A DNA stretch of 29,808 nt, taken from IMG/VR virus record IMGVR_UViG_3300028423_000707, positions 1-29,808 of that record; one strand, given 5' to 3'. Within the stretch, counting starts at the first letter, position 1, and every line of letters begins with the position of its first letter. The DNA comes from a virus. Of this stretch, positions 9 to 26,599 are shown piece by piece. The position numbers and the translations under genes were made by a program. The notes beneath the pieces were generated by a model. It ran no database searches. It saw only the letters and a program-made list of their open reading frames with translations, and was not told where the DNA came from.

Positions 9-659
9 TTATATTGTCTCCGACATGTAGGTACCTGCTATGTTGAATGAGTCTGTCGTGGTCAAAGTAATGGGACTGCCCTGTGAAAATGGTGTCTCAG
101 TTAAGCTCTGACCCTCTGGACTTAGGGTATAAAGTTTTAGAACATTAGTTCCTACGTCTACTCGACCTTGAATAATGTAAACATCTCCCGTGCTGTCATC
201 CAGCAAACTTCCGTTTGAGAATGAGTAACCGTGATGAACATTGGTTGGAAGTGTTACGTAATATTGGCCTGTGCCAAAGCTCACAATGTTATCCATATCA
301 ACATCAACAGAGAAATGTACTAATTGACCGAGTTTTACATAGTGTCCATGAAATAATGGGTCTCCTATGAAAGTTGGCTGGGTTTCGTCCGTACCACCTT
401 GCACTGTATATTCAATAATGCCTGGCTCTGGTTCTGGCCCAGTGGGGCCAGTAGGACCCGTTACACCCTGAGTTCCCTGCGGTCCCGTTGGTCCTTGCGG
501 TGCGGTAGCAACCTGCACCCACTGCTGACTGTCGCCGTCATTTACATATACATAAAACTTTCCAGACTCTAAGTCTGCCCAAACCTGACCAACAAACGGT
601 TCAGTAGGGAATGTGGTCTCAAAAGCACCTGCGGGCCCGGTGTCACCAGTAGGCCCAGT
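9..659 (-). CDS. Tail fibre/baseplate protein, collagen-like and C-terminal part (frameshifted from 643-996)
   Basis: This reading frame holds two blocks of Gly-X-Y (collagen-like) triplets such as GPTGPTGDTGPAG and GPTGPQG, with a short linker between them. A beta-rich C-terminal domain of about 130 residues follows and ends at a TAA. That build is typical of the shaft and receptor-binding tip of phage tail fibres. The frame has no convincing start: the only candidate is a GTG at 518 without a ribosome site, and the frame is open upstream to about 674. It continues directly from the baseplate-like N-terminal part at 643-996 if one base is skipped in the GGGG run at 660-663. I read both as one gene broken by a +1 shift, either a sequencing indel or a real (possibly programmed) frameshift. 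The role is known by analogy only. Confidence 0.7.
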   Translation of the reverse strand, partial: TGPTGDTGPAGAFETTFPTEPFVGQVWADLESGKFYVYVNDGDSQQWVQVATAPQGPTGPQGTQGVTGPTGPTGPEPEPGIIEYTVQGGTDETQPTFIGDPLFHGHYVKLGQLVHFSVDVDMDNIVSFGTGQYYVTLPTNVHHGYSFSNGSLLDDSTGDVYIIQGRVDVGTNVLKLYTLSPEGQSLTETPFSQGSPITLTTTDSFNIAGTYMSETI

Positions 660-11180: not shown

Positions 11181-11934
11181 GTTTTTTAGAAAAAAGAACA
11201 AGTTGGTTGAGCCGGGTGAACAACTAATAGAGTTTGGAAGAACAGCTGATTGGATTCCTTATCCACAGCCAGCCAGTAAATCTATTCCTGACTGGTATAA
11301 AAATACCCCAAAGTACACTAATGGTAATGAACCAATTATGGGTTCGGAGCATCAATCTAGTAATTTGAGTGTTAAATACTGTATTCCATTCTTAGATGCC
11401 CTGACAGTTGGATACACTGCACATTTATGGTGTGACCTTAAGGTAGAGCAAAGACCGGCAGGGCCTTGGTTTACTTGGCGCGTGGAGCCATCGGTATTAG
11501 ATGGCCGGAATCCTGAAGGTTTAGAGACGTTACCTATCCCGCATGGGCACTCAGATAATCATTTTATTTGGCACCAGCCATTTAGTGTTAGGGTTCCTAA
11601 GGGGTATTCAGTGCTATACACCCACCCTTTTAATAGGTATGACCTTCCATTTACCACTTTGACTGGGATACACGACTCAGACACTATTCTTCCTCCCGGT
11701 AATTTTCCATTTCATCTAAAGGAAGGTTTTGAAGGCATCATACCTTCAGGCACGCCTATATTTCAGATGCTACCTTTTAAACGTGAAGATTGGGTAGGAC
11801 TTGGTAATCCAGAATTACAAAAAGAAGGTCACGACCGTTCAATGAAGTCCGTGAGTATGGTAGCTGGCTATTACAAGAAAAAGCGTTGGTCACGAAAGAA
11901 CTACAGAATGGTTGAGATAGAAGATGACATTTAA
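11170..11934 (+). CDS. Conserved protein of unknown function, paralogue B of the halogenase-linked pair
   Basis: 254 residues; tandem ATGs at 11170 and 11173 are both possible starts. It shares with the 10099 protein the blocks 'SKSIPDWY', 'SVKYCIPFLDALTVGYT', 'VPKGYSVLYTHPFNRYDLPF', 'NFPFHLKEGFEGIIPSGTP', 'FQMLPFKREDW' and a basic C terminus. The HPxNRxDLPF and GTPxxQxxPFKRxxW motifs are the best constant points. There is no signal peptide or membrane helix, so it is cytoplasmic or virion-borne. It overlaps the first halogenase by 11 bases, which points to stoichiometric co-translation with it. Role unknown; a substrate-binding or carrier partner of the halogenase is conjecture. Confidence 0.7.
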   Translation: MMFEFFRKKNKLVEPGEQLIEFGRTADWIPYPQPASKSIPDWYKNTPKYTNGNEPIMGSEHQSSNLSVKYCIPFLDALTVGYTAHLWCDLKVEQRPAGPWFTWRVEPSVLDGRNPEGLETLPIPHGHSDNHFIWHQPFSVRVPKGYSVLYTHPFNRYDLPFTTLTGIHDSDTILPPGNFPFHLKEGFEGIIPSGTPIFQMLPFKREDWVGLGNPELQKEGHDRSMKSVSMVAGYYKKKRWSRKNYRMVEIEDDI

Positions 11935-13516
11935 AGATAACCACAAACAGCGATTCGTAGTTCTAGGGGCTGGTACAGCAGGTACTATAGCTGCTTTATA
12001 TCTACAAACTGTGGATGAAAATTGCAAGATAACTATTGTCAAGTCAGATAGTGTTGGCATACTAGGTTCTGGAGAGGGAACCACACCTGCGTTTGTAAAG
12101 ATGATGGACGCCTGTGGTATACCTTTTGAGAGACTGGTCCGACGCACAGGTGCAACCGTTAAAAACGGAATTAGGTTTTGTGGGTGGAATAAAAACAACA
12201 AACAGCAAAGCGACCAGTTTGTACACTCGTTTGGCGCTGGGTTAGGTTTGGGTATTGTAGATTTAACTCCTTCCGAGCAGGTAGTCCCTTTTAGTGGCGC
12301 ATTTCTTATGAATGCTCAGTATGGAGAGTCACCAGATAAAAGTGATTTAACAGCTAAAGCAGCTAAGCTATACAAGGCAAATTTTGCTCCTCGAGACGGC
12401 AGCCAAGTAGGTGACGACGCAGGTGGTCAGAGAGATATCTCTGAGTTGGCTGCCATATCAAAGTTTGCAGTTCATTTTGACGCTAATGCCTTAGCCGAAG
12501 AACTACTTCTTGTCGCTCAAGAGAGGGGTATAGACGTTGTAGAGGGTAAGGTGAAGGACTTTGTGCAAAACGAAAAAGGGGATGTTACAAGCTTAGTTCT
12601 AAATAATGATTCTTCTATACCTCTAGACTTTTTAATTGATGCTAGTGGTTTTAGCAGGATGTTCCCTAAAGCGTTTAAGTCTAAGTGGGTTAGCTGGAAG
12701 AAGTATCTACCTGTTGACTCTGCTATACCTTTTTTCTTACCAAAAACAAAAAAGATACCAGCTATAACTGACGCTATTGCCATGAACTATGGGTGGATGT
12801 GGAAGATACCTCTACAACACAGATGGGGGTGTGGGTATGTTTTTGATTCTTCGCTTATTTCAGCTGAGGAAGCCGCAGCTGAGGCTGCAGAATTTTTAGG
12901 AGCCAAAGTCGAGTACGACACAGTGCTGACTTTTGAGCCAGGTTACTACAAGACCCCGTGGCAACGCAATGTAGTTTCTATTGGACTAGCTAGCAGTTTC
13001 GTCGAGCCACTAGAGGCAACTTCTATATGGGCAACTATCTTACAGCTTGAAGAACTTTTTACCCGTCCTGAAATGATTCACAATCCTAATCAAGAGAGCA
13101 GAGATTTTTTCAATAAAAGGAATGAGCAACTCCAGCAAAACATTGCTGCAATGATTCAACTTCATTATCAAACTAGGCGGAAGGACACAGAGTTTTGGCA
13201 AAAGTTTGATGGAACTAATCTAGTTCCTAGGCTAGCTGAGATTTATGACATTCTTAAATATAGAACTTTAGATTGGAGAGATATAGAGGGTGGAGACCCT
13301 TGGCACTTAGATTCTTGGTATTACGTTGGTATGGGTGTCAAGCACTCAGACATGCTAAGAAGATTAGGGGAGGCTACGGAATACAACCTCTATAGTCAAA
13401 AAGTTAAGTTTGATTACGAGTACCTGAGGAAACAACAAGCTATGGGGGCGATTAACCATCTTTACGACCATAGAACATTCTTAGAGTTACTAGGAGCAGA
13501 ACCTTGGCAAGATTAG
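11924..13516 (+). CDS. Flavin-dependent halogenase (tryptophan halogenase family), copy 1
   Basis: 530 residues, full length for PrnA/RebH-type enzymes, which use FADH2, O2 and chloride or bromide to halogenate electron-rich rings. It begins with the FAD-binding GAGTAG (residues 15-20) and has 'GSGEGTTP' (49-55). Lys80 in 'GATVKNGIRF' sits where the catalytic lysine (Lys79 of PrnA and RebH) is expected. The halogenase motif WMWKIP (291-296) is intact, and 'GLASSFVEPLEATSI' holds the active-site glutamate region (361-367). All hallmark residues are present, so it looks active. The substrate cannot be told from sequence; free tryptophan, an indole, a peptide or a tRNA/protein side chain are all open. 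It overlaps both neighbours. Confidence 0.92.
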   Translation: MTFKDNHKQRFVVLGAGTAGTIAALYLQTVDENCKITIVKSDSVGILGSGEGTTPAFVKMMDACGIPFERLVRRTGATVKNGIRFCGWNKNNKQQSDQFVHSFGAGLGLGIVDLTPSEQVVPFSGAFLMNAQYGESPDKSDLTAKAAKLYKANFAPRDGSQVGDDAGGQRDISELAAISKFAVHFDANALAEELLLVAQERGIDVVEGKVKDFVQNEKGDVTSLVLNNDSSIPLDFLIDASGFSRMFPKAFKSKWVSWKKYLPVDSAIPFFLPKTKKIPAITDAIAMNYGWMWKIPLQHRWGCGYVFDSSLISAEEAAAEAAEFLGAKVEYDTVLTFEPGYYKTPWQRNVVSIGLASSFVEPLEATSIWATILQLEELFTRPEMIHNPNQESRDFFNKRNEQLQQNIAAMIQLHYQTRRKDTEFWQKFDGTNLVPRLAEIYDILKYRTLDWRDIEGGDPWHLDSWYYVGMGVKHSDMLRRLGEATEYNLYSQKVKFDYEYLRKQQAMGAINHLYDHRTFLELLGAEPWQD

Positions 13517-13794
13517 AGTGGTTGTCCGCTCTAAAAACTATGTTAAAGACCAGCTACTGGGATAAACCAAACACTGTTGAGTTCTTTGCCTTCATGATAA
13601 AAATTATTATTATTATCCCTGGGCTAATCTGGGGCGTCTATATCTGGTGGCTATATCTGTTTTCCTTGGGAACCAGCTTTGCGTTAGTATGGTCTTCGAC
13701 TGTTAAGACGTTGCCAACTATTATTATTTTGAACCTAGCTTGGATATTCTTATCGTCATTTGTACTTATCAGAGAGTTTTTATCATGGATATAA
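13504..13794 (+). CDS. Two-helix membrane protein between the halogenases
   Basis: Up to 96 residues from a TTG at 13504 with an AGGAG 7 bases before it; an ATG at 13540 without ribosome site would give 84 residues. Two long hydrophobic stretches are clear: 'IKIIIIIPGLIWGVYIWWLYL' and 'LPTIIILNLAWIFLSSFVLI'. It overlaps halogenase 1 by 13 bases and halogenase 2 by 10. Nothing identifies a function. Its place between two redox enzymes allows a membrane anchor or transporter subunit as guesses only. Confidence 0.6.
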   Translation: MARLEWLSALKTMLKTSYWDKPNTVEFFAFMIKIIIIIPGLIWGVYIWWLYLFSLGTSFALVWSSTVKTLPTIIILNLAWIFLSSFVLIREFLSWI

Positions 13795-15302
13795 CTATAT
13801 GTGGCGGGGGTACAGCTGGCTGGATTGCTGCCTTCCACCTCCTTCGGGCGTCGAATATTAAAAAACTAACTGTAATAGAGTCATCAAAAGTTGGGATTAT
13901 TGGGGCGGGTGAAGCATCAAGCGGTTTGCTTTACTCTTTGCTGGAAGATGAGTACAGCAATAGCGACTTTTCTATGTATGAAAAAAGTTGGCCAAAAGTT
14001 GACCTTGAGCACTTCAACAATAGTGTCGAAGCAAGTCCAAAGTATGGGATTTTTCATAAAGATTGGGCAAAAAAGCCTGGTGGATACTTTGGACCAATAA
14101 TTGGTAGTCCAACAGAAAAAGTTCATCAAGATTTTTTGTTTCTAGCAGCAGTAGCATCCAGTCAGGGCAGGAAAGGTCATACTGCAAGTGAGTTTGGAAT
14201 TGCTTACGACCTAAACGCTTGGCCAATAAGTGAAGGGCCAGCTTTACACTTTGACGGAAATAAGTTTTCTAAATATATAAGGGATTTCTTACTTAGCTAT
14301 GAAAATCGGCTAAATGTAGTAGACGCAACTATTGATAACGTCAATCTAGACAGCAGGGGTTGGATTGAAAGTGTCAACTTAGATGATGGCTCTGAAGTTA
14401 AAAGCGACTTTTGGTTTGATGCTACAGGTTTTAAGAAAGTTTTAATGAGCAAGATGGGGACAGAGTGGACTTCCTATAAAGATGTGCTACCTGTGGATAG
14501 TGCCATACCTTTTATAGAGGAGTATCAACCCGAGGAACGGGTAAAACCCATGACATTGGCTCAGGCTATGAGCTCTGGCTGGATGTGGAACTCACCTTTG
14601 GACCATAGAAAAGGAGCTGGCTATGTATACTCTAGTCAGTTTGTTAGCGATGAAGATGCCTTAAAAGAAGTTGAAGAAGTAGTTGGTCATGAAGTCGACC
14701 CAATAAAAACAATTAAGTTTGAATCAGGCAGGATTTCAGAAACTTGGAAAAATAACTGCATAGCTATAGGGCTAGCATCATCTTTCTTAGAACCACTAGA
14801 AGCTACATCTATCCACTCCACAATTGTGCAAATGATTGCTTTCACAAGAGAGTACTTAACTCCTACTGTAAATACAACTGTAAAAGAATCCTATATTACT
14901 AGCTACAACGAGCGTATAAGTAAGGTGCTAGAGCATTACAAGGACTTTACCGTTTTTCACTACCAAGGGGGGAGGACTGACTCCGAGTTTTGGAGATATA
15001 TAACTAATGAGAAAGCCACTACTCCAGTTGTTGAAAATTACATTGAAAAGGCTCAAAACAACATTATCCCTGGCGATACATATTTTAATGACAAGTTTGC
15101 ACTCGATGGACTTTGGAAGTGGACCTTATCTGGGCTTGACTTAATCACTCCTGCCCAGGCAAATAAGCAATTAAAATTTCATAATATGTACAGGTTGTCT
15201 ACTGATAAGCTTGCTATGTACATACAAGAAAACAAAGAAATTTATAGACAAAGAGGTATCCCATTTATCTTTTTGCCAAGAGGAGCTGGTTGGGAACGTT
15301 GA
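13785..15302 (+). CDS. Flavin-dependent halogenase (tryptophan halogenase family), divergent copy 2
   Basis: 505 residues from the ATG at 13785 (AGAGAG upstream). FAD motif GGGTAG (residues 7-12), then 'GAGEASS' (40-46) lacking the usual Thr-Pro. Lys86 in 'EASPKYGIFHKDW' matches the catalytic lysine position. The halogenase motif reads WMWNSP (266-271), with Ser where Ile is normal in WxWxIP. 'GLASSFLEPLEATSI' (329-343) is kept, and 'LPVDSAIPF' is shared with copy 1. Overall it is clearly a paralogue, not a recent duplicate. The altered motif suggests a different substrate pocket or weaker halogenation. Its TGA overlaps the next TTG start. Confidence 0.9.
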   Translation: MDITICGGGTAGWIAAFHLLRASNIKKLTVIESSKVGIIGAGEASSGLLYSLLEDEYSNSDFSMYEKSWPKVDLEHFNNSVEASPKYGIFHKDWAKKPGGYFGPIIGSPTEKVHQDFLFLAAVASSQGRKGHTASEFGIAYDLNAWPISEGPALHFDGNKFSKYIRDFLLSYENRLNVVDATIDNVNLDSRGWIESVNLDDGSEVKSDFWFDATGFKKVLMSKMGTEWTSYKDVLPVDSAIPFIEEYQPEERVKPMTLAQAMSSGWMWNSPLDHRKGAGYVYSSQFVSDEDALKEVEEVVGHEVDPIKTIKFESGRISETWKNNCIAIGLASSFLEPLEATSIHSTIVQMIAFTREYLTPTVNTTVKESYITSYNERISKVLEHYKDFTVFHYQGGRTDSEFWRYITNEKATTPVVENYIEKAQNNIIPGDTYFNDKFALDGLWKWTLSGLDLITPAQANKQLKFHNMYRLSTDKLAMYIQENKEIYRQRGIPFIFLPRGAGWER

Positions 15303-19436: not shown

Positions 19437-19507
19437 CCATCCCTAGTTCAATTGGCAGAGCAGCGCATACGAAGCGTGGGTTCCTGGTTCGACTCCAGGG
19501 GGATGGA
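19437..19507 (+). tRNA. tRNA-Arg (anticodon ACG)
   Basis: Acceptor CCATCCC (19437-19443) pairs with GGGATGG (19500-19506), with discriminator A. The D stem is GTTC/GAGC. The anticodon loop ATACGAA gives anticodon ACG on a GCGC/GCGT stem closed by a weak A-G pair. The T arm is CCTGG-TTCGACT-CCAGG with a 4-base variable loop. CCA is not encoded. At 71 bases it is slightly short. It would read CGU (and CGC/CGA if A34 becomes inosine in the host). The frame of the anticodon arm is the least sure part. Confidence 0.75.
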
Positions 19508-19538
19508 CTTTTACATATGATAGTGTTATGGTGAAAGC

Positions 19539-21699: not shown

Positions 21700-22677
21700 T
21701 TACTTCTCAGGGAACTTAATCTCCTGACCAATACGGATTAGGTTTACGTTAGTGATGTTGTTGTGTCGAGCAAGCTCACTTACGCTGAACCCGTGCTCTA
21801 TTGCAATCTTTGAAAGTGTGTCACCTGGCCTTACTTGATATGACTTTGGTGCCTCTTCCTTCTTTTCCTCTTTTGGAGCTTCTTTTGGAGCTTCTGGCTT
21901 TTTCTCTTCTACCTTCTTGTTAGCCTCATAAGCCTGACGGGTTCCATACTTTTTAGCCTTGTCGTTGCCTCTGCCAGCCCATGGGTTGCGAGTAGGTTTT
22001 GCTCCAGCTTTAACTGTCTCACAGAAGAATTGCTTGCCATTGTAGTAGAGGCAGATTTCGTGAGTGTCTTTAAGAGTTACGCCCTTCATATGGGTTTTAT
22101 CTGCCTTGACAGTCTTATACCAAACGCTCTTGCCATCTTTACGCATACGTAGCTTGGCTCCTACTGGGAAGTTGTCAATCTTCACAACAACGTTTCCATT
22201 TTTTGGAATCAGCTTTACCTCAACGTCAGCCTCTGGTCCTGGACCTGCGTGCTTGTTGATGAACTTGTATAGGTCGTAAACTTTGCCCCAGAAAATACCT
22301 TTTCTTGAGGTGGACAAAGTTGCATGGAGGTGGGGACCGGAACTTGCCTTGCCTGTATTTCCAAGCAGTGCGATGGTGTCGCCCATCTTTACTTTGTCGC
22401 CTACTTTTAGGGTTGGCTTCTTTGCAAGGTGTGCGTATCCGATGTACCAGGTCTTGCCTTCTGCCCAAGCAGTTTGGACGATGCACCAACCAAGGATTTT
22501 TGAGTACTGGACGAGGGCAATTGTTCCGTCAGTGATGGCTGGGATAGGGGTTTTGTTTGGTTTAGCCCAGTCGGTTCCGCGGTGTGGTCCTAGACCATTG
22601 CGAATCCTAAAGGCGGAGCGAGTTCCAAAATAACCGGTAATACGGTCCTCTGAAAATGGCTGCATCCAGTTGGCCAC
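21700..22677 (-). CDS. Endolysin: M23 peptidase with C-terminal LysM domain
   Basis: 325 residues from a GTG at 22677 with AGGAG 9 bases before it. Residues 1-130 are an M23 (LytM-type) zinc metallopeptidase: His32-x3-Asp36 ('GPHRGTDWA'), His83 in 'YAHL' and His116-x-His118 in 'GPHLHATL'. A middle part of unknown kind and a Lys/Glu/Pro-rich linker lead to a LysM at about 281-325 ('YQVRPGDTLSKIAIEHGFSVSELARHNNI...GQEIKFP') that binds peptidoglycan. There is no signal peptide, so export needs a holin. It would cut peptide cross-links of the actinobacterial wall; a tail-associated role is the alternative. Confidence 0.88.
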   Translation of the reverse strand: MANWMQPFSEDRITGYFGTRSAFRIRNGLGPHRGTDWAKPNKTPIPAITDGTIALVQYSKILGWCIVQTAWAEGKTWYIGYAHLAKKPTLKVGDKVKMGDTIALLGNTGKASSGPHLHATLSTSRKGIFWGKVYDLYKFINKHAGPGPEADVEVKLIPKNGNVVVKIDNFPVGAKLRMRKDGKSVWYKTVKADKTHMKGVTLKDTHEICLYYNGKQFFCETVKAGAKPTRNPWAGRGNDKAKKYGTRQAYEANKKVEEKKPEAPKEAPKEEKKEEAPKSYQVRPGDTLSKIAIEHGFSVSELARHNNITNVNLIRIGQEIKFPEK

Positions 22678-22749
22678 GATAGTTCTCCTAATAAATAAGT
22701 TGGGTTGTAGTTCTATTTTACCTAAACCTAAAACGGGCGATTTCTGTGG

Positions 22750-22755
22750 TAAGAT
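22750..22755 (+). promoter_or_regulatory. -10 box of a probable leaderless transcript
   Basis: TAAGAT, 7 bases before the ATG at 22763, with no ribosome site. It lies in the divergent region facing the endolysin gene. Confidence 0.4.
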
Positions 22756-22762
22756 TTGCCTC

Positions 22763-23233
22763 ATGAGCGACTATGGATTACTTTTAAGAACTTTTCATAT
22801 AGAGGTACAAAAAGATGGATTTCCGCCTGAGTATGACCAACTAAATGATGCTGCTCCATATTTTTTAGCAGCTGAGGACTACACAATTGAGCCTAACGAA
22901 AAAAAGATTCTCAGGACCGGCTGTCACATAAAATATCCCGATATTGAGTTTGCTATGGTATACAGCCCTATGCCGCAGTTGTTACTAGAAGGTCTAATGC
23001 TGTTTGACAATAATAGGATTATAGATTCTTGGGATAATACTGAGCTTCACTGTATGATTTGGAATACTACTGATGAACCAAAAACCATCAAGCGTGGACA
23101 AAGAATCTTTAGAGGTGCAATTGTTCTAACTTCTCATGCAAGTTTTGTCGATGCAGATACTGAATATGTAACTAGTTGGAAGCCTGAAGACGAATTACCT
23201 GCTAACAGAATCAGATGGAAGTTGATTAGATGA
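22763..23233 (+). CDS. Degenerate dUTPase-fold protein
   Basis: 156 residues. The C-terminal two thirds follow the trimeric dUTPase pattern: 'YTIEPNEKKILRTGCHIKYP' (motif 1 region), 'GLMLFDNNRIIDS' (motif 3, usually GLxxxxGxIDxxYxG) and 'LHCMIWNTTDEPKTIKRGQRIFRGAIV' (the 'VILINLGDEPFTIKRGDRIAQLV' stretch). The motif 2 RSG, the motif 3 tyrosine and the C-terminal P-loop-like motif 5 are not seen. It may have lost dUTP hydrolysis and act as a regulator, as some phage dUTPases do, or handle another nucleotide. ATGA overlap with the next gene. Confidence 0.65.
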   Translation: MSDYGLLLRTFHIEVQKDGFPPEYDQLNDAAPYFLAAEDYTIEPNEKKILRTGCHIKYPDIEFAMVYSPMPQLLLEGLMLFDNNRIIDSWDNTELHCMIWNTTDEPKTIKRGQRIFRGAIVLTSHASFVDADTEYVTSWKPEDELPANRIRWKLIR

Positions 23234-23871: not shown

Positions 23872-24063
23872 CTATGCTTCAGGGTCGTGTCGTGTTGGAT
23901 AAGTGATAATCCAAACGGCAAGAGTAATGATGATTAGATTGCCGACCACGTCGCGAGCTGAGCCTTCGAGCAGTACCCAACCAATGAGCAGTGCAACGAT
24001 GGTCCAAACCTGGTCTACCAGGTCGCGAAAGAGGCCAAACAAAAAGTTCATTAGTTTTCTCAT
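23872..24063 (-). CDS. Small membrane protein of the lysis region
   Basis: 63 residues behind AAAGGAAAGGA. An N-terminal amphipathic segment ('MRKLMNFLFGLFRDLVDQ') precedes hydrophobic stretches 'VWTIVALLIGWVLLE' and 'VVGNLIIITLAVWIITYP'. It lies 15 bases downstream of the restored end of the secreted protein gene and is probably in one operon with it and the holin-like gene. Pinholin, antiholin or spanin-like roles are possible but unproven. Confidence 0.6.
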   Translation of the reverse strand: MRKLMNFLFGLFRDLVDQVWTIVALLIGWVLLEGSARDVVGNLIIITLAVWIITYPTRHDPEA

Positions 24064-24078
24064 TGCTTATCCTTTCCT

Positions 24079-24243
24079 TTATTTCTTGAATCTTCTGTAA
24101 GCTGCGAATCCTGGTGCTCCACCTGCTCTAGCTGCAGGGGCGGAGGTGGCTGCTGCGGCGGCTGCTTGAGAAGCAACTTGTGCAACCTGCTGGACAATGA
24201 CAGATGCAACTACTACCTTCTGAGCGTCTTCTCGGACTTCGGG
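24079..24243 (-). pseudogene. Out-of-frame C-terminal extension of the secreted protein
   Basis: In the frame one base back, 'PEVREDAQKVVVASVIVQQVAQVASQ' and an Ala-rich, Gly/Pro-containing end 'GAPGFAAYRRFKK' continue smoothly from the helical C terminus of the secreted protein and stop at TAA, 15 bases before the next gene. The amphipathic to hydrophobic helix with a basic end looks like a membrane anchor or a sorting tail. The join is at the GGG run 24241-24243 and would need one extra G. No start codon serves it alone. Confidence 0.6.
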
Positions 24244-26294
24244 ATTGATGGAATGGCTGCAATTTCTTCGTTTAGCTCTGGGTCATCAGCTTCGGCAACA
24301 ACTGCAAGAGCTGTAAGGGCTGCTTCATACTCTGGGGAGTCTGGTTCTGAAGATTCAAAGACTTCTTTAACCGCTTCTTTAACTATTTCTTGTTGAACGG
24401 GTGTAATCTTTTTTGGGTCCTCAAGCTGAACTAGCTTCTCAACAGATTCGATAACATTGTCTTGTGAGATATTTTCTACTAGCTCTTGTTGCTCTGCCTC
24501 TGGCGTTGGCTCTGGCTCTGGTTCGCTATCATCAGACTCGACTGGAACTGATTCGTCGTCAACAGGCTCTTCAGATGGCTCAGGAGATTCGTCGGAATCA
24601 GGCTCTTCAGGCAAAGGTTCGGGCTCTGGCTCCGGCTCGGGAACAGTGGGAGTGGGAGGCGTAGGCTGTGACTCTTCAGGTTCTGGCTCTGGCTCCTCTG
24701 TTTCTTCTGGTTGTGTTTCTTCTGGCTCGGGTTCTTCTTCAACGTCCTCTGAGTCTTCCAGAGGCTCATCTTCTTCTGTGTCAGTCTCTGGTGTTTCTTC
24801 TTCTGGTTCTGGCTCTGGTTCAATCTCCGGCTCTGGCTCAGGTGTAACCTCTGGCATAGGGGTAGGAGCTGGGGCTACATAAATAGGCTGAGGTGGGGGT
24901 GGAGGCGGAACTTCTGATTGAACTTGTTCTTGGACATGTTGAACTTTTTCTGAAGCAGTGGAAGTTGCTACGGTTGCACTATCAGCAGACATAACAGCTG
25001 TATTCACTGCTTCCTCTGCGTAGCTGGCAGCAACTGCTTCATCATAAATGGCGGTCTCGGTGTTGAGCTTTGCCATGTCGTACTCTGCTGATTTCTGGTC
25101 ACGAGTCTGAAAAGCGTCAGCTTCTATAGCTTGCAATCCTTCTAGAGTTGAAACCTCTGTATTGAAAGTAGCTGTTGTAGTCTCGACGTTTTCGTAAAGC
25201 TGTGGGTCAACAGGTTCGCCATCTTGTGCGTAATAAATGTCGTCAACTATGTACCAGTCGGAATCTGGCGGTAGAACTACGTTGTCTACATAGTAGCCAT
25301 CTGGACTCTTGTAGACCTCGTAGGTTGTGTACTCAGGATTGCCTTCTGGATAGCTAGAGACGTTGTCTTCAATCATCCAAGAATCTTGAGCTGTAGTTCC
25401 TTCAGAGTCAAAAATGTTGACGGTAGCAATGGTGTCACCATTCTTTGCGTAAACGCTCATACCAATCTCAGAAATTTGCTTGACGTTTGGGAAATCAATA
25501 ACAGTGTCGCGAGTAGTGTTCTGTAGTTGGAGCGTGGTTCCGTCAAAGTGCGTGGTGTATTGGTCAGTAATAGAAGTCTGGTCAACTTCAGTTTCGGTGA
25601 CTGGTTGCCCGTCTTTGAGGATTTGAATGTCGGTGCTGGAAGTTGTGAAGTTTCCGTCAGCGTCGGTAAAGGATTCTGTAGTTTTTATCTTTGATGCATC
25701 CTCGGCAGCAGCAAGTTCTTGTTCGGCTGTATTCTTTACAACCATTGCATCATCTACAACTATTTCTTGGTTAGCAACATCAGTGGAAGCTATAGAGACG
25801 TTGTCTTCGGCTGTAGCAAGTTCAGTCTCGGCGGTAGCTTCTTCCTGCATAAAGAGGTCTGTGGTGTCTTTAGCAAGAGCGTAGTCGTTAACTGCTTGTT
25901 GTGCAGTCTCTAGGTCAGTCTGTGCGTTGGCAGTTTCGACCTTTGCAGATTCGATTAGAGAGTCAGCTTCAACAATGTCGTTTTGCAAGTCTTCGGAAGG
26001 TGAAGGAACTTCTGATTCTTTTTGTGCAACAGCATCAGAAAGGTCTTGCTCTGCTTGTGCAATTGTTGATTCGTCCGTAGAAATCTGTGCAGCAGTTTGG
26101 TCAACGGCAGACTGTAAGTCATCTGGAGTAGGGGGAGGGGGTGGTGGTTCAGACGTTGTTACTTCGGAAGAAGAACTGTCAGGAGAGACTACTTCTTCAG
26201 TGGCGTAGGCATTGCTAGCGTGCGAAACCAAGGAGGCCGTAAAAGCTAACGCGGTCCCTGAGAGTGTAAGTATGGCAAAGCGTGCAAAGGTCAT
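24213..26294 (-). CDS. Large secreted Pro/Glu-repeat protein with coiled coils
   Basis: 693 residues as read. A clear signal peptide (residues 1-31, 'RFAILTLSGTALAFTASLVS', cleavage near NAYA|TEE) is followed by PPPPPP and a long Ala/Glu/Gln helical region (about 56-200) with coiled-coil character. Next come a beta-rich domain (about 205-370) with many Tyr and Asp, a second helical region, then a Pro-Glu/acidic repeat tract (about 463-601, PEPEPEPE) like wall-spanning stalks of surface proteins. The C terminus is helical, and the frame then runs out at a TAG with 'KSEKTLRR'; a one-base change at 24241-24243 would extend it by 54 residues. Its ATG overlaps the holin stop (ATGA). A phage product exported by the host Sec system that reaches through the cell wall is likely; its target is unknown. 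Confidence 0.75.
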   Translation of the reverse strand: MTFARFAILTLSGTALAFTASLVSHASNAYATEEVVSPDSSSSEVTTSEPPPPPPTPDDLQSAVDQTAAQISTDESTIAQAEQDLSDAVAQKESEVPSPSEDLQNDIVEADSLIESAKVETANAQTDLETAQQAVNDYALAKDTTDLFMQEEATAETELATAEDNVSIASTDVANQEIVVDDAMVVKNTAEQELAAAEDASKIKTTESFTDADGNFTTSSTDIQILKDGQPVTETEVDQTSITDQYTTHFDGTTLQLQNTTRDTVIDFPNVKQISEIGMSVYAKNGDTIATVNIFDSEGTTAQDSWMIEDNVSSYPEGNPEYTTYEVYKSPDGYYVDNVVLPPDSDWYIVDDIYYAQDGEPVDPQLYENVETTTATFNTEVSTLEGLQAIEADAFQTRDQKSAEYDMAKLNTETAIYDEAVAASYAEEAVNTAVMSADSATVATSTASEKVQHVQEQVQSEVPPPPPPQPIYVAPAPTPMPEVTPEPEPEIEPEPEPEEETPETDTEEDEPLEDSEDVEEEPEPEETQPEETEEPEPEPEESQPTPPTPTVPEPEPEPEPLPEEPDSDESPEPSEEPVDDESVPVESDDSEPEPEPTPEAEQQELVENISQDNVIESVEKLVQLEDPKKITPVQQEIVKEAVKEVFESSEPDSPEYEAALTALAVVAEADDPELNEEIAAIPSIPKSEKTLRR

Positions 26295-26599
26295 TTCTTT
26301 TCTTGGATTTCTTCCTGATTCTTTAGACGCACTACTTGACTAAAGATGGTGTTGACTTCGTCTTTGTCGATTTTTCCATCTTCGAGAAATGCCAAAGCCA
26401 ATTTTTCAACGACCTTAGCAACTGCTAGTAGTCCGCCTAAAGCTGCAGAAAGCCAGACGTCAATACCAATGATTGAGCCTGCACCAATAACGCCAAGGGC
26501 AGAAGCGATAAATGTGGCAACTATTCGCCAGAAAACATCGATGGTGAGATGTATGTTGCCGTCTTTTTTCTTTTTCTTTTTGGCTCTAGAATTAGACAA
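26291..26599 (-). CDS. Holin-like membrane protein, copy 2
   Basis: 102 residues from a TTG (26599); no better start is visible. A Lys-rich head (RAKKKKKKDG) is followed by hydrophobic helices ('VFWRIVATFIASALGVIGAGSIIGIDVWLSAALGGLLAVAKVV') and 'DGKIDKDEVNTIF', then a charged tail. It matches the plus-strand protein at 6470 in order and motifs. It is the first gene of the probable lysis operon and overlaps the secreted protein gene. The r1t-like holin assignment rests on layout and paralogy. Confidence 0.62.
   Translation of the reverse strand: MSNSRAKKKKKKDGNIHLTIDVFWRIVATFIASALGVIGAGSIIGIDVWLSAALGGLLAVAKVVEKLALAFLEDGKIDKDEVNTIFSQVVRLKNQEEIQEKK

Follow-up and report, generated by a model that had tools for sequence, protein, structure and literature searches.

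What might a phage do with a large, apparently exported protein whose gene adjoins a holin-like gene? The question is raised by an IMG/VR virus record of 29,808 bases, analysed over its whole length and referred to here as the window. A preliminary description of this DNA had recognized a Sec signal, coiled coils, a beta-rich domain, a Pro-Glu stalk and a C-terminal helix in the next frame, and had proposed a role in lysis, superinfection exclusion or adhesion. The architecture and location given there hold up in the comparisons reported below; the two-helix partner (23872-24063), the frameshift as such and the CBM-like head were absent from that account. Architecture and setting are well supported, and it is from these that we infer a function.

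Organization of the locus

As read in the window, the surface protein comprises 693 amino acids (24213..26294, minus strand) and is tied to its family by a C-domain profile (E 1.5e-22) and an ectodomain alignment (hhalign E 4.2e-10). Its parts, all on the minus strand, begin with a Sec-type signal peptide (residues 1-31, 26202..26294), in which AYA at residues 29-31 precedes the presumed cut. There follow a first coiled coil (residues 61-200, 25695..26114), a beta-sandwich head with a CBM-like fold (residues 201-359, 25218..25694), a second coiled coil (residues 364-461, 24912..25205) and a Pro/Glu stalk (residues 466-600, 24495..24899). Both coiled coils appear as long helices in the AlphaFold2 model of the ectodomain (mean pLDDT 84.7), in agreement with the preliminary description, and the beta-rich domain that it named corresponds to the predicted sandwich at 201-359. 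The stalk, put there at about 140 residues, is delimited by composition to 135, with 30% Pro, 34% Glu, no Lys or Arg and a net charge of -56. The conserved C-terminal domain (C-domain) comes in two parts: the first, in frame, occupies 24243..24509 (profile E 1.5e-22, model positions 2-87), while the last, carrying the hydrophobic helix, basic tail and stop, was found by profile and alignment in the -1 frame at 24079..24252 (profile E 1.4e-11, model positions 107-146).

A two-helix membrane protein of 63 amino acids (23872..24063, minus strand), recognized as the invariant partner by its pairing across relatives, comes next. Upstream, a holin-like protein of 102 amino acids (26291..26599, minus strand), identified by PHROG matches and 15 relatives, shares 4 nt with the beginning of the surface gene. 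An endolysin with M23 peptidase and LysM domains (21700..22764, minus strand; Pfam M23 E 4.3e-18, LysM E 3.3e-13) is located about 1.1 kb from the cassette, beyond two plus-strand genes (one dUTPase-like, one with no match), and is not within the same gene run as the surface protein. A scan for promoters and terminators gave a result near chance.

Elsewhere, the window encodes two tandem tryptophan halogenases (11924-13516 and 13740-15302, plus strand; Pfam E 3.5e-96 and 6.6e-80), a tRNA-Arg (acg) at 19437-19508 and, at its edge, a fragment of a collagen-like tail fibre (9-518, minus strand). A tryptophan halogenase about 29% identical to those of the window is also present in Actinomycetia phage DSL-LC01, which is described as metagenome-assembled and predicted to infect Actinomycetia (PMC10611076). 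Comparisons of RNR and halogenase pinned down no host for the window virus.

Recognition and extent of the family

Searched whole, the window protein gave zero matches, as did the -1-frame piece used alone as a query, and phmmer with the window ectodomain against the relatives returned nothing; the kinship of this ectodomain was found by profile comparison. The holin-like gene as a query led to 15 contigs, all of which carry a large surface protein (L014-L016 among the carriers): 12 have an adjoining large downstream ORF of the same plan, and 3 a large ORF upstream of the two-helix gene. The C-terminal domain (a query of 140 residues from ten relatives) retrieved 282 viral-contig stretches, of which the best 80 were kept; one scan covering 84,980 species of bacteria and archaea gave no match. 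With the two-helix protein at least 593 stretches were obtained (593 of the first 600 candidates), the best 80 again being kept. Both 282 and 593 are stretches confirmed by tblastn among candidates, in which one virus may recur, and because the best 80 were kept from each search, the tested loci are biased to close relatives. The two-helix protein additionally matched one contig binned as a Flavobacteriaceae MAG; the contig carries phage-like genes and is probably a mis-binned phage. One row of the two-helix alignment (L097:11465-11644) was unrelated and was dropped.

No entry of Pfam, NCBIfam, PHROG or PADLOC names the family, as judged from the members scanned, and no description of the surface-protein family was found in the literature searched. 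The two-helix protein has no match in Pfam, PHROG or NCBIfam at E 1e-3. Neither the L003/L017-type C-domain nor the L061 two-helix protein had a match among INPHARED phages, where the DSL-LC01 protein or its tail matched DSL-LC01 alone. The surface protein and the two-helix protein constitute a unit that occurs in hundreds of stretches of uncultured viral contigs and is absent from the family libraries searched.

Export signal, stalk and anchor

Signal and hydropathy were assessed by hand-made rules, against 360 other long frames of the same loci, a control set in which antisense frames were included and any frame bearing the family motif was omitted. Of the full-length unique relatives, 101 of 105 satisfied the signal rule, versus 82 of the 360 controls; among the four misses, L002 and L036 show a signal by eye, and L041 and L134 have no normal start. 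The C-terminal hydrophobic helix passed in 115 of 127 relatives versus 10 of the 360 control frames, and the tail behind it carries a net positive charge in 126 of 127. The 12 relatives below the KD threshold of 1.6 have short or weakly hydrophobic helices; the -1-frame helix of the window itself scores 1.44, and the C-terminus of L144 is a long Lys-rich tail. The LPxTG motif occurs in none of the 127 unique relatives, and a lipobox-like motif in 3 of 127. A Pro-rich stretch (≥20% within 80 residues) was present in 85 of 116 relatives, so that the stalk is usual, not universal. The structure model of the C-domain (mean pLDDT 72.9) had no convincing match in the PDB.

Sequence comparison shows the family to share a predicted cleavable-type signal, a variable ectodomain, a usual Pro-rich stalk and a conserved helical C-domain with a hydrophobic helix and a basic tail. 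Conservation across the relatives thereby supports predicted export, a wall-spanning stalk and a place in the lysis operon, as well as the Sec signal that had been proposed from the window alone. The same data bear on the view that the gene encodes a virion protein (a fibre or receptor-binding protein), with the signal-like segment being a structural helix. Tail fibres commonly contain coiled coils and CBM-like domains, and minor tail and adsorption proteins are among the viral fold matches. The preliminary description had itself pointed to a virion-internal helix, or to structural relatives lacking export, as grounds for abandoning its proposal; instead, conservation extends to signal, anchor helix and basic tail, and the neighbouring genes encode membrane and lysis proteins. 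A search of 14 records for the A5 head, moreover, found it as a single copy in three of them and marginally (E 0.005) in a fourth, never twice in the same record. Given the excess of signals and C-terminal helices over the controls, the virion protein is the most improbable of the readings weighed here.

The reading frame of the anchor

Placement of the C-terminal helix in the next frame was correct for the window but does not describe the normal state of the family: at the break site, the relatives have a single unbroken frame ending in a hydrophobic helix and a basic tail. In the window the frame changes near 24243-24252, and about 20 profile positions are missing at the break. The surface ORF meets an in-frame stop at 24213, and the conserved -1-frame continuation runs to a stop at 24079-24081, ending 15 nt before the two-helix partner gene. 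A programmed -1 frameshift is disfavoured, as visual inspection revealed no canonical X XXY YYZ heptamer and the relatives have one frame. Relatives L041 and L042 are identical over 2.1 kb save for a one-base indel, at which the L041 surface gene is truncated.

The window anchor is out of frame through either mutation or an assembly error. The frameshift and the profile positions lost at the anchor could mean that the gene is already broken and yields a soluble, unanchored secreted protein or nothing useful. Since the -1-frame part is still well conserved and lies close to the partner gene, however, the break would be recent or an artefact; together with the indel between the otherwise identical L041 and L042 stretches, this makes a genuinely broken gene very unlikely.

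Head domain and ectodomain swapping

An hhalign comparison aligned the head of the window protein to those of eight relatives at E 4.2e-10 and 23% identity. In the ectodomain model, the sandwich is located between the long helices, with pLDDT values of 49-91 per block across it, compared with 84.7 overall. Structure comparison with VIA-align related it to CBM29 (Z 9.0-9.4, rmsd 3.2-3.4, 122-126 residues aligned) and to D-glucuronyl C5-epimerase (Z 9.5, rmsd 3.0, 123 residues), and Foldseek matched it to the carbohydrate-binding module fold (E about 1e-4). Because these Z values are just one or two above the usual level of the tool for models with no clear match, there is moderate support for a head that folds like a carbohydrate-binding module.

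PA14 proteins of uncultured phages rank among the best matches to viral structures, as do proteins of tails or adsorption. Among seven relatives scanned, PA14 scored above the cut-off in L089, and fn3 below it in L017 and L072. The SEC10/PgrA family (NCBIfam TIGR04320) reached 22.3 and 20.3 bits against a cut-off of 70 in two of seven proteins scanned, in both cases over the coiled coil; it did not match the window protein.

C-domain identity of at least 70% links 582 pairs of relatives, of which 139 have no ectodomain match (e.g., L024 and L027, 94.6% identical in the C-domain), although some rows among the 139 are truncated ORFs such as L134. It follows that ectodomain modules are swapped between relatives. 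Such swapping over a conserved anchor would be no less natural in an adhesin or exclusion protein than in a lysis factor, and the glycan-binding-like folds of the heads point the same way. The protein could thus be an adhesin, a receptor mask or a superinfection-exclusion protein, displayed late on the infected cell, with the lysis operon serving only for late expression. Its binding of glycans might block the adsorption of other phages, or of the phage's own progeny on debris, or might stick infected cells to their neighbours. Matches to PA14, tail and adsorption proteins would be expected if the head and receptor-binding proteins meet the same glycans. The invariant pinholin-like coupling and the strong endolysin neighbourhood documented below, however, exceed the needs of late expression, and the SEC10/PgrA match is weak, far below the cut-off and confined to the coiled coil of two relatives. 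We regard this role as a serious possibility that nevertheless falls well short of probable.

Pairing with the two-helix protein in the lysis cassette

A two-helix gene is found nearby in all 71 listed unique loci (unique proteins only) recruited via the C-domain or the holin-like gene, at gaps of -86 to 627 nt from the surface gene. Recruitment via the two-helix protein leads to the same arrangement: in each of the 80 loci kept, a large ORF immediately precedes the two-helix gene. The C-domain profile recognizes 61 of these ORFs at E 1e-3; visual inspection gives the remaining 19 the same tail plan, which L152, L153, L157 and L172 also show in alignment. When identical two-helix genes are merged, 117 of 117 have an upstream large ORF, 89 of them at a gap of 20 nt or less and often overlapping. 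Measured from stop to stop, the 100 upstream ORFs clear of a contig edge range from 280 codons, in the frameshifted L041, up to 1286. Loci overlap between these counts, and some of the loci scanned had themselves contributed seed sequences to the two-helix, holin-like and M23 profiles.

The partner is about 62 amino acids long, with charged ends and two hydrophobic helices in 59 of 59 proteins, for all of which a crude hydropathy rule (positive-inside) predicts an N-in/C-in topology. Gaps of about 400 nt to the surface gene are occupied, in the loci looked at, by a staphylococcal-nuclease-like gene. The nuclease-like genes carry no visible signal (L007 10650-11063, L017 6423-6836 and others; L017 Pfam SNase E 3.2e-14). 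Candidates for secreted subtilisin-like proteases were noticed by eye near the cassette (L016 9106-9936, L042 7964-9001, L032 7458-8261).

Of 137 loci, 100 encode an M23 endolysin downstream, on the same strand and no more than 6.5 kb away, and 5 have one upstream; counted over distinct loci, it is downstream in 65 of 96. A holin-like gene is nearby, before or after, in 53 of 75 distinct loci. In the window this gene adjoins the surface gene, and its product matches a holin family (PHROG 443, E 5.6e-4) and, better, PHROG 26427 (E 1.6e-24), labelled nuclease; for a small two-helix holin-like protein that label may be wrong. The lysis-operon location thus extends from the window, where it had been noted, to the relatives. 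At the level of gene order, the surface protein is shown to be strictly paired with the two-helix protein, with putative holin and M23 endolysin genes as frequent neighbours.

An apparent fusion in phage DSL-LC01

The two members of the unit appear to be fused in DSL-LC01. Its hypothetical protein WJZ48438.1 (944 amino acids) has a head homologous to that of the window protein (hhalign E 7.7e-12) and a tail resembling the two-helix protein, as indicated by a one-sequence search (E 4.7e-6) and by a second comparison (E 4.1e-5, probability 70%). The tail also matches PHROG 29041, a family of 55 positions, at E 1.8e-5. As the C-domain was not detected in DSL-LC01, the evidence for fusion consists of head and tail only. 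WJZ48438.1 is like the window protein in its homologous head, signal, stalk and membrane tail, and differs from it in the two-helix-type tail fused on, a Thr/Pro stalk and the lack of a detectable C-domain. If the fusion is right, the N-terminal end of the tail, and hence the C-terminal end of the anchor, would be in the cytoplasm.

Fusion and obligate pairing with a holin-like protein, along with a variable ligand-binding-like head, a stalk and a membrane helix, would also suit an extracellular sensor of lysis timing. In such an analogue of T4 RI, the ectodomain would bind glycans or arriving virions, and the anchor would hold or release the two-helix partner. No sign of regulation was seen, however, and both the two-helix protein and the holin-like neighbour are putative holins, so that we consider a sensor unlikely. 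Equally doubtful is its elaboration into a receptor-gated lysis switch, in which an antenna of the phage would cross the host wall, bear exchangeable heads that sense glycans or virions, and be coupled through the membrane to a pinholin-like partner. The moment of lysis would then depend on what the infected cell touches, and an extracellular sensor-holin pair would exist in phages for which no cultured relative was found, with both parts fused in DSL-LC01.

Proposed role at the lysis step

The reading that we tentatively prefer, while stopping short of calling it probable, is an exported, membrane-anchored, wall-spanning and glycan-binding protein that acts at the lysis step, like LysZ. The product, probably made late, would be exported by Sec, its C-terminal helix remaining in the membrane with the tail in the cytoplasm, and the two-helix protein would bind this anchor. 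The stalk would carry the head through the peptidoglycan to glycans of the envelope or surface. Less certainly, engagement of these glycans at lysis might open the envelope and free the virions once holin and endolysin act. Several observations count against this lysis-step role: the window anchor lies out of frame, and the window endolysin outside the gene run of the surface protein; a recognised holin or M23 endolysin is nearby in only part of the cassettes (53/75 and 65/96); ectodomains are swapped; and the C-terminal helices of some relatives are short or weakly hydrophobic.

Should the lysis-step role be correct, the two-gene unit would add a building block to Gram-positive lysis, in which the steps after holin and endolysin are poorly known. 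Relatives encoded beside the same small membrane protein point to an undescribed part of host exit or of host-cell marking. If binding by the infected cell is determined by the heads, these would be a natural library of modules for surface display. An interaction between the surface protein and the two-helix protein can be tested directly, given the strict pairing and the apparent fusion.

Comparison with known systems

In overall plan, the family resembles sortase-anchored surface proteins of Gram-positive bacteria, which likewise have a signal, an N-terminal ligand-binding head, a Pro-rich wall-spanning stalk and a hydrophobic helix with a basic tail. It differs from them in lacking LPxTG in all 127 relatives, in being phage-borne and in having a partner that is not a sortase. 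The modelled head shares its fold with carbohydrate-binding modules of families 29, 22, 16 and 61, although at only 7-17% identity to the window head, and a shared fold shows no function. Unlike tail fibres and receptor-binding proteins, the family has a conserved export signal.

Among lysis proteins, the T4 antiholin RI is small and periplasmic, and is comparable by description in being exported, phage-encoded and potentially able to reach a holin from the outer side. The T4 lysis-inhibition genes rI and rIII are mentioned in PMC13056207. According to the same source, the phage 21 pinholin and mycobacteriophage LysF1a have an N-in/C-in topology (PMC13056207), as is predicted for the partner of about 62 amino acids with its two short helices; the likeness is one of topology, and the partner differs in being tied to a large exported protein.

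LysZ of the Corynebacterium glutamicum phages CL31 and Cog is described as a lysis protein with one TMD and an N-in/C-out topology, proposed to meet lipid-anchored glycans, and its deletion leads to small plaques (PMC13056207). By this description, LysZ shares with the surface protein a membrane anchor, an extracellular part proposed to meet envelope glycans and a location in the lysis cassette. The surface-protein family, by contrast, has a signal peptide and a C-terminal anchor, which would give it the opposite topology, and is further set apart by its usual Pro-rich stalk, swapped heads and invariant two-helix partner. Compared by description, with sequence kinship forming no part of the likeness, LysZ would be the closest functional precedent for the protein encoded in the window.
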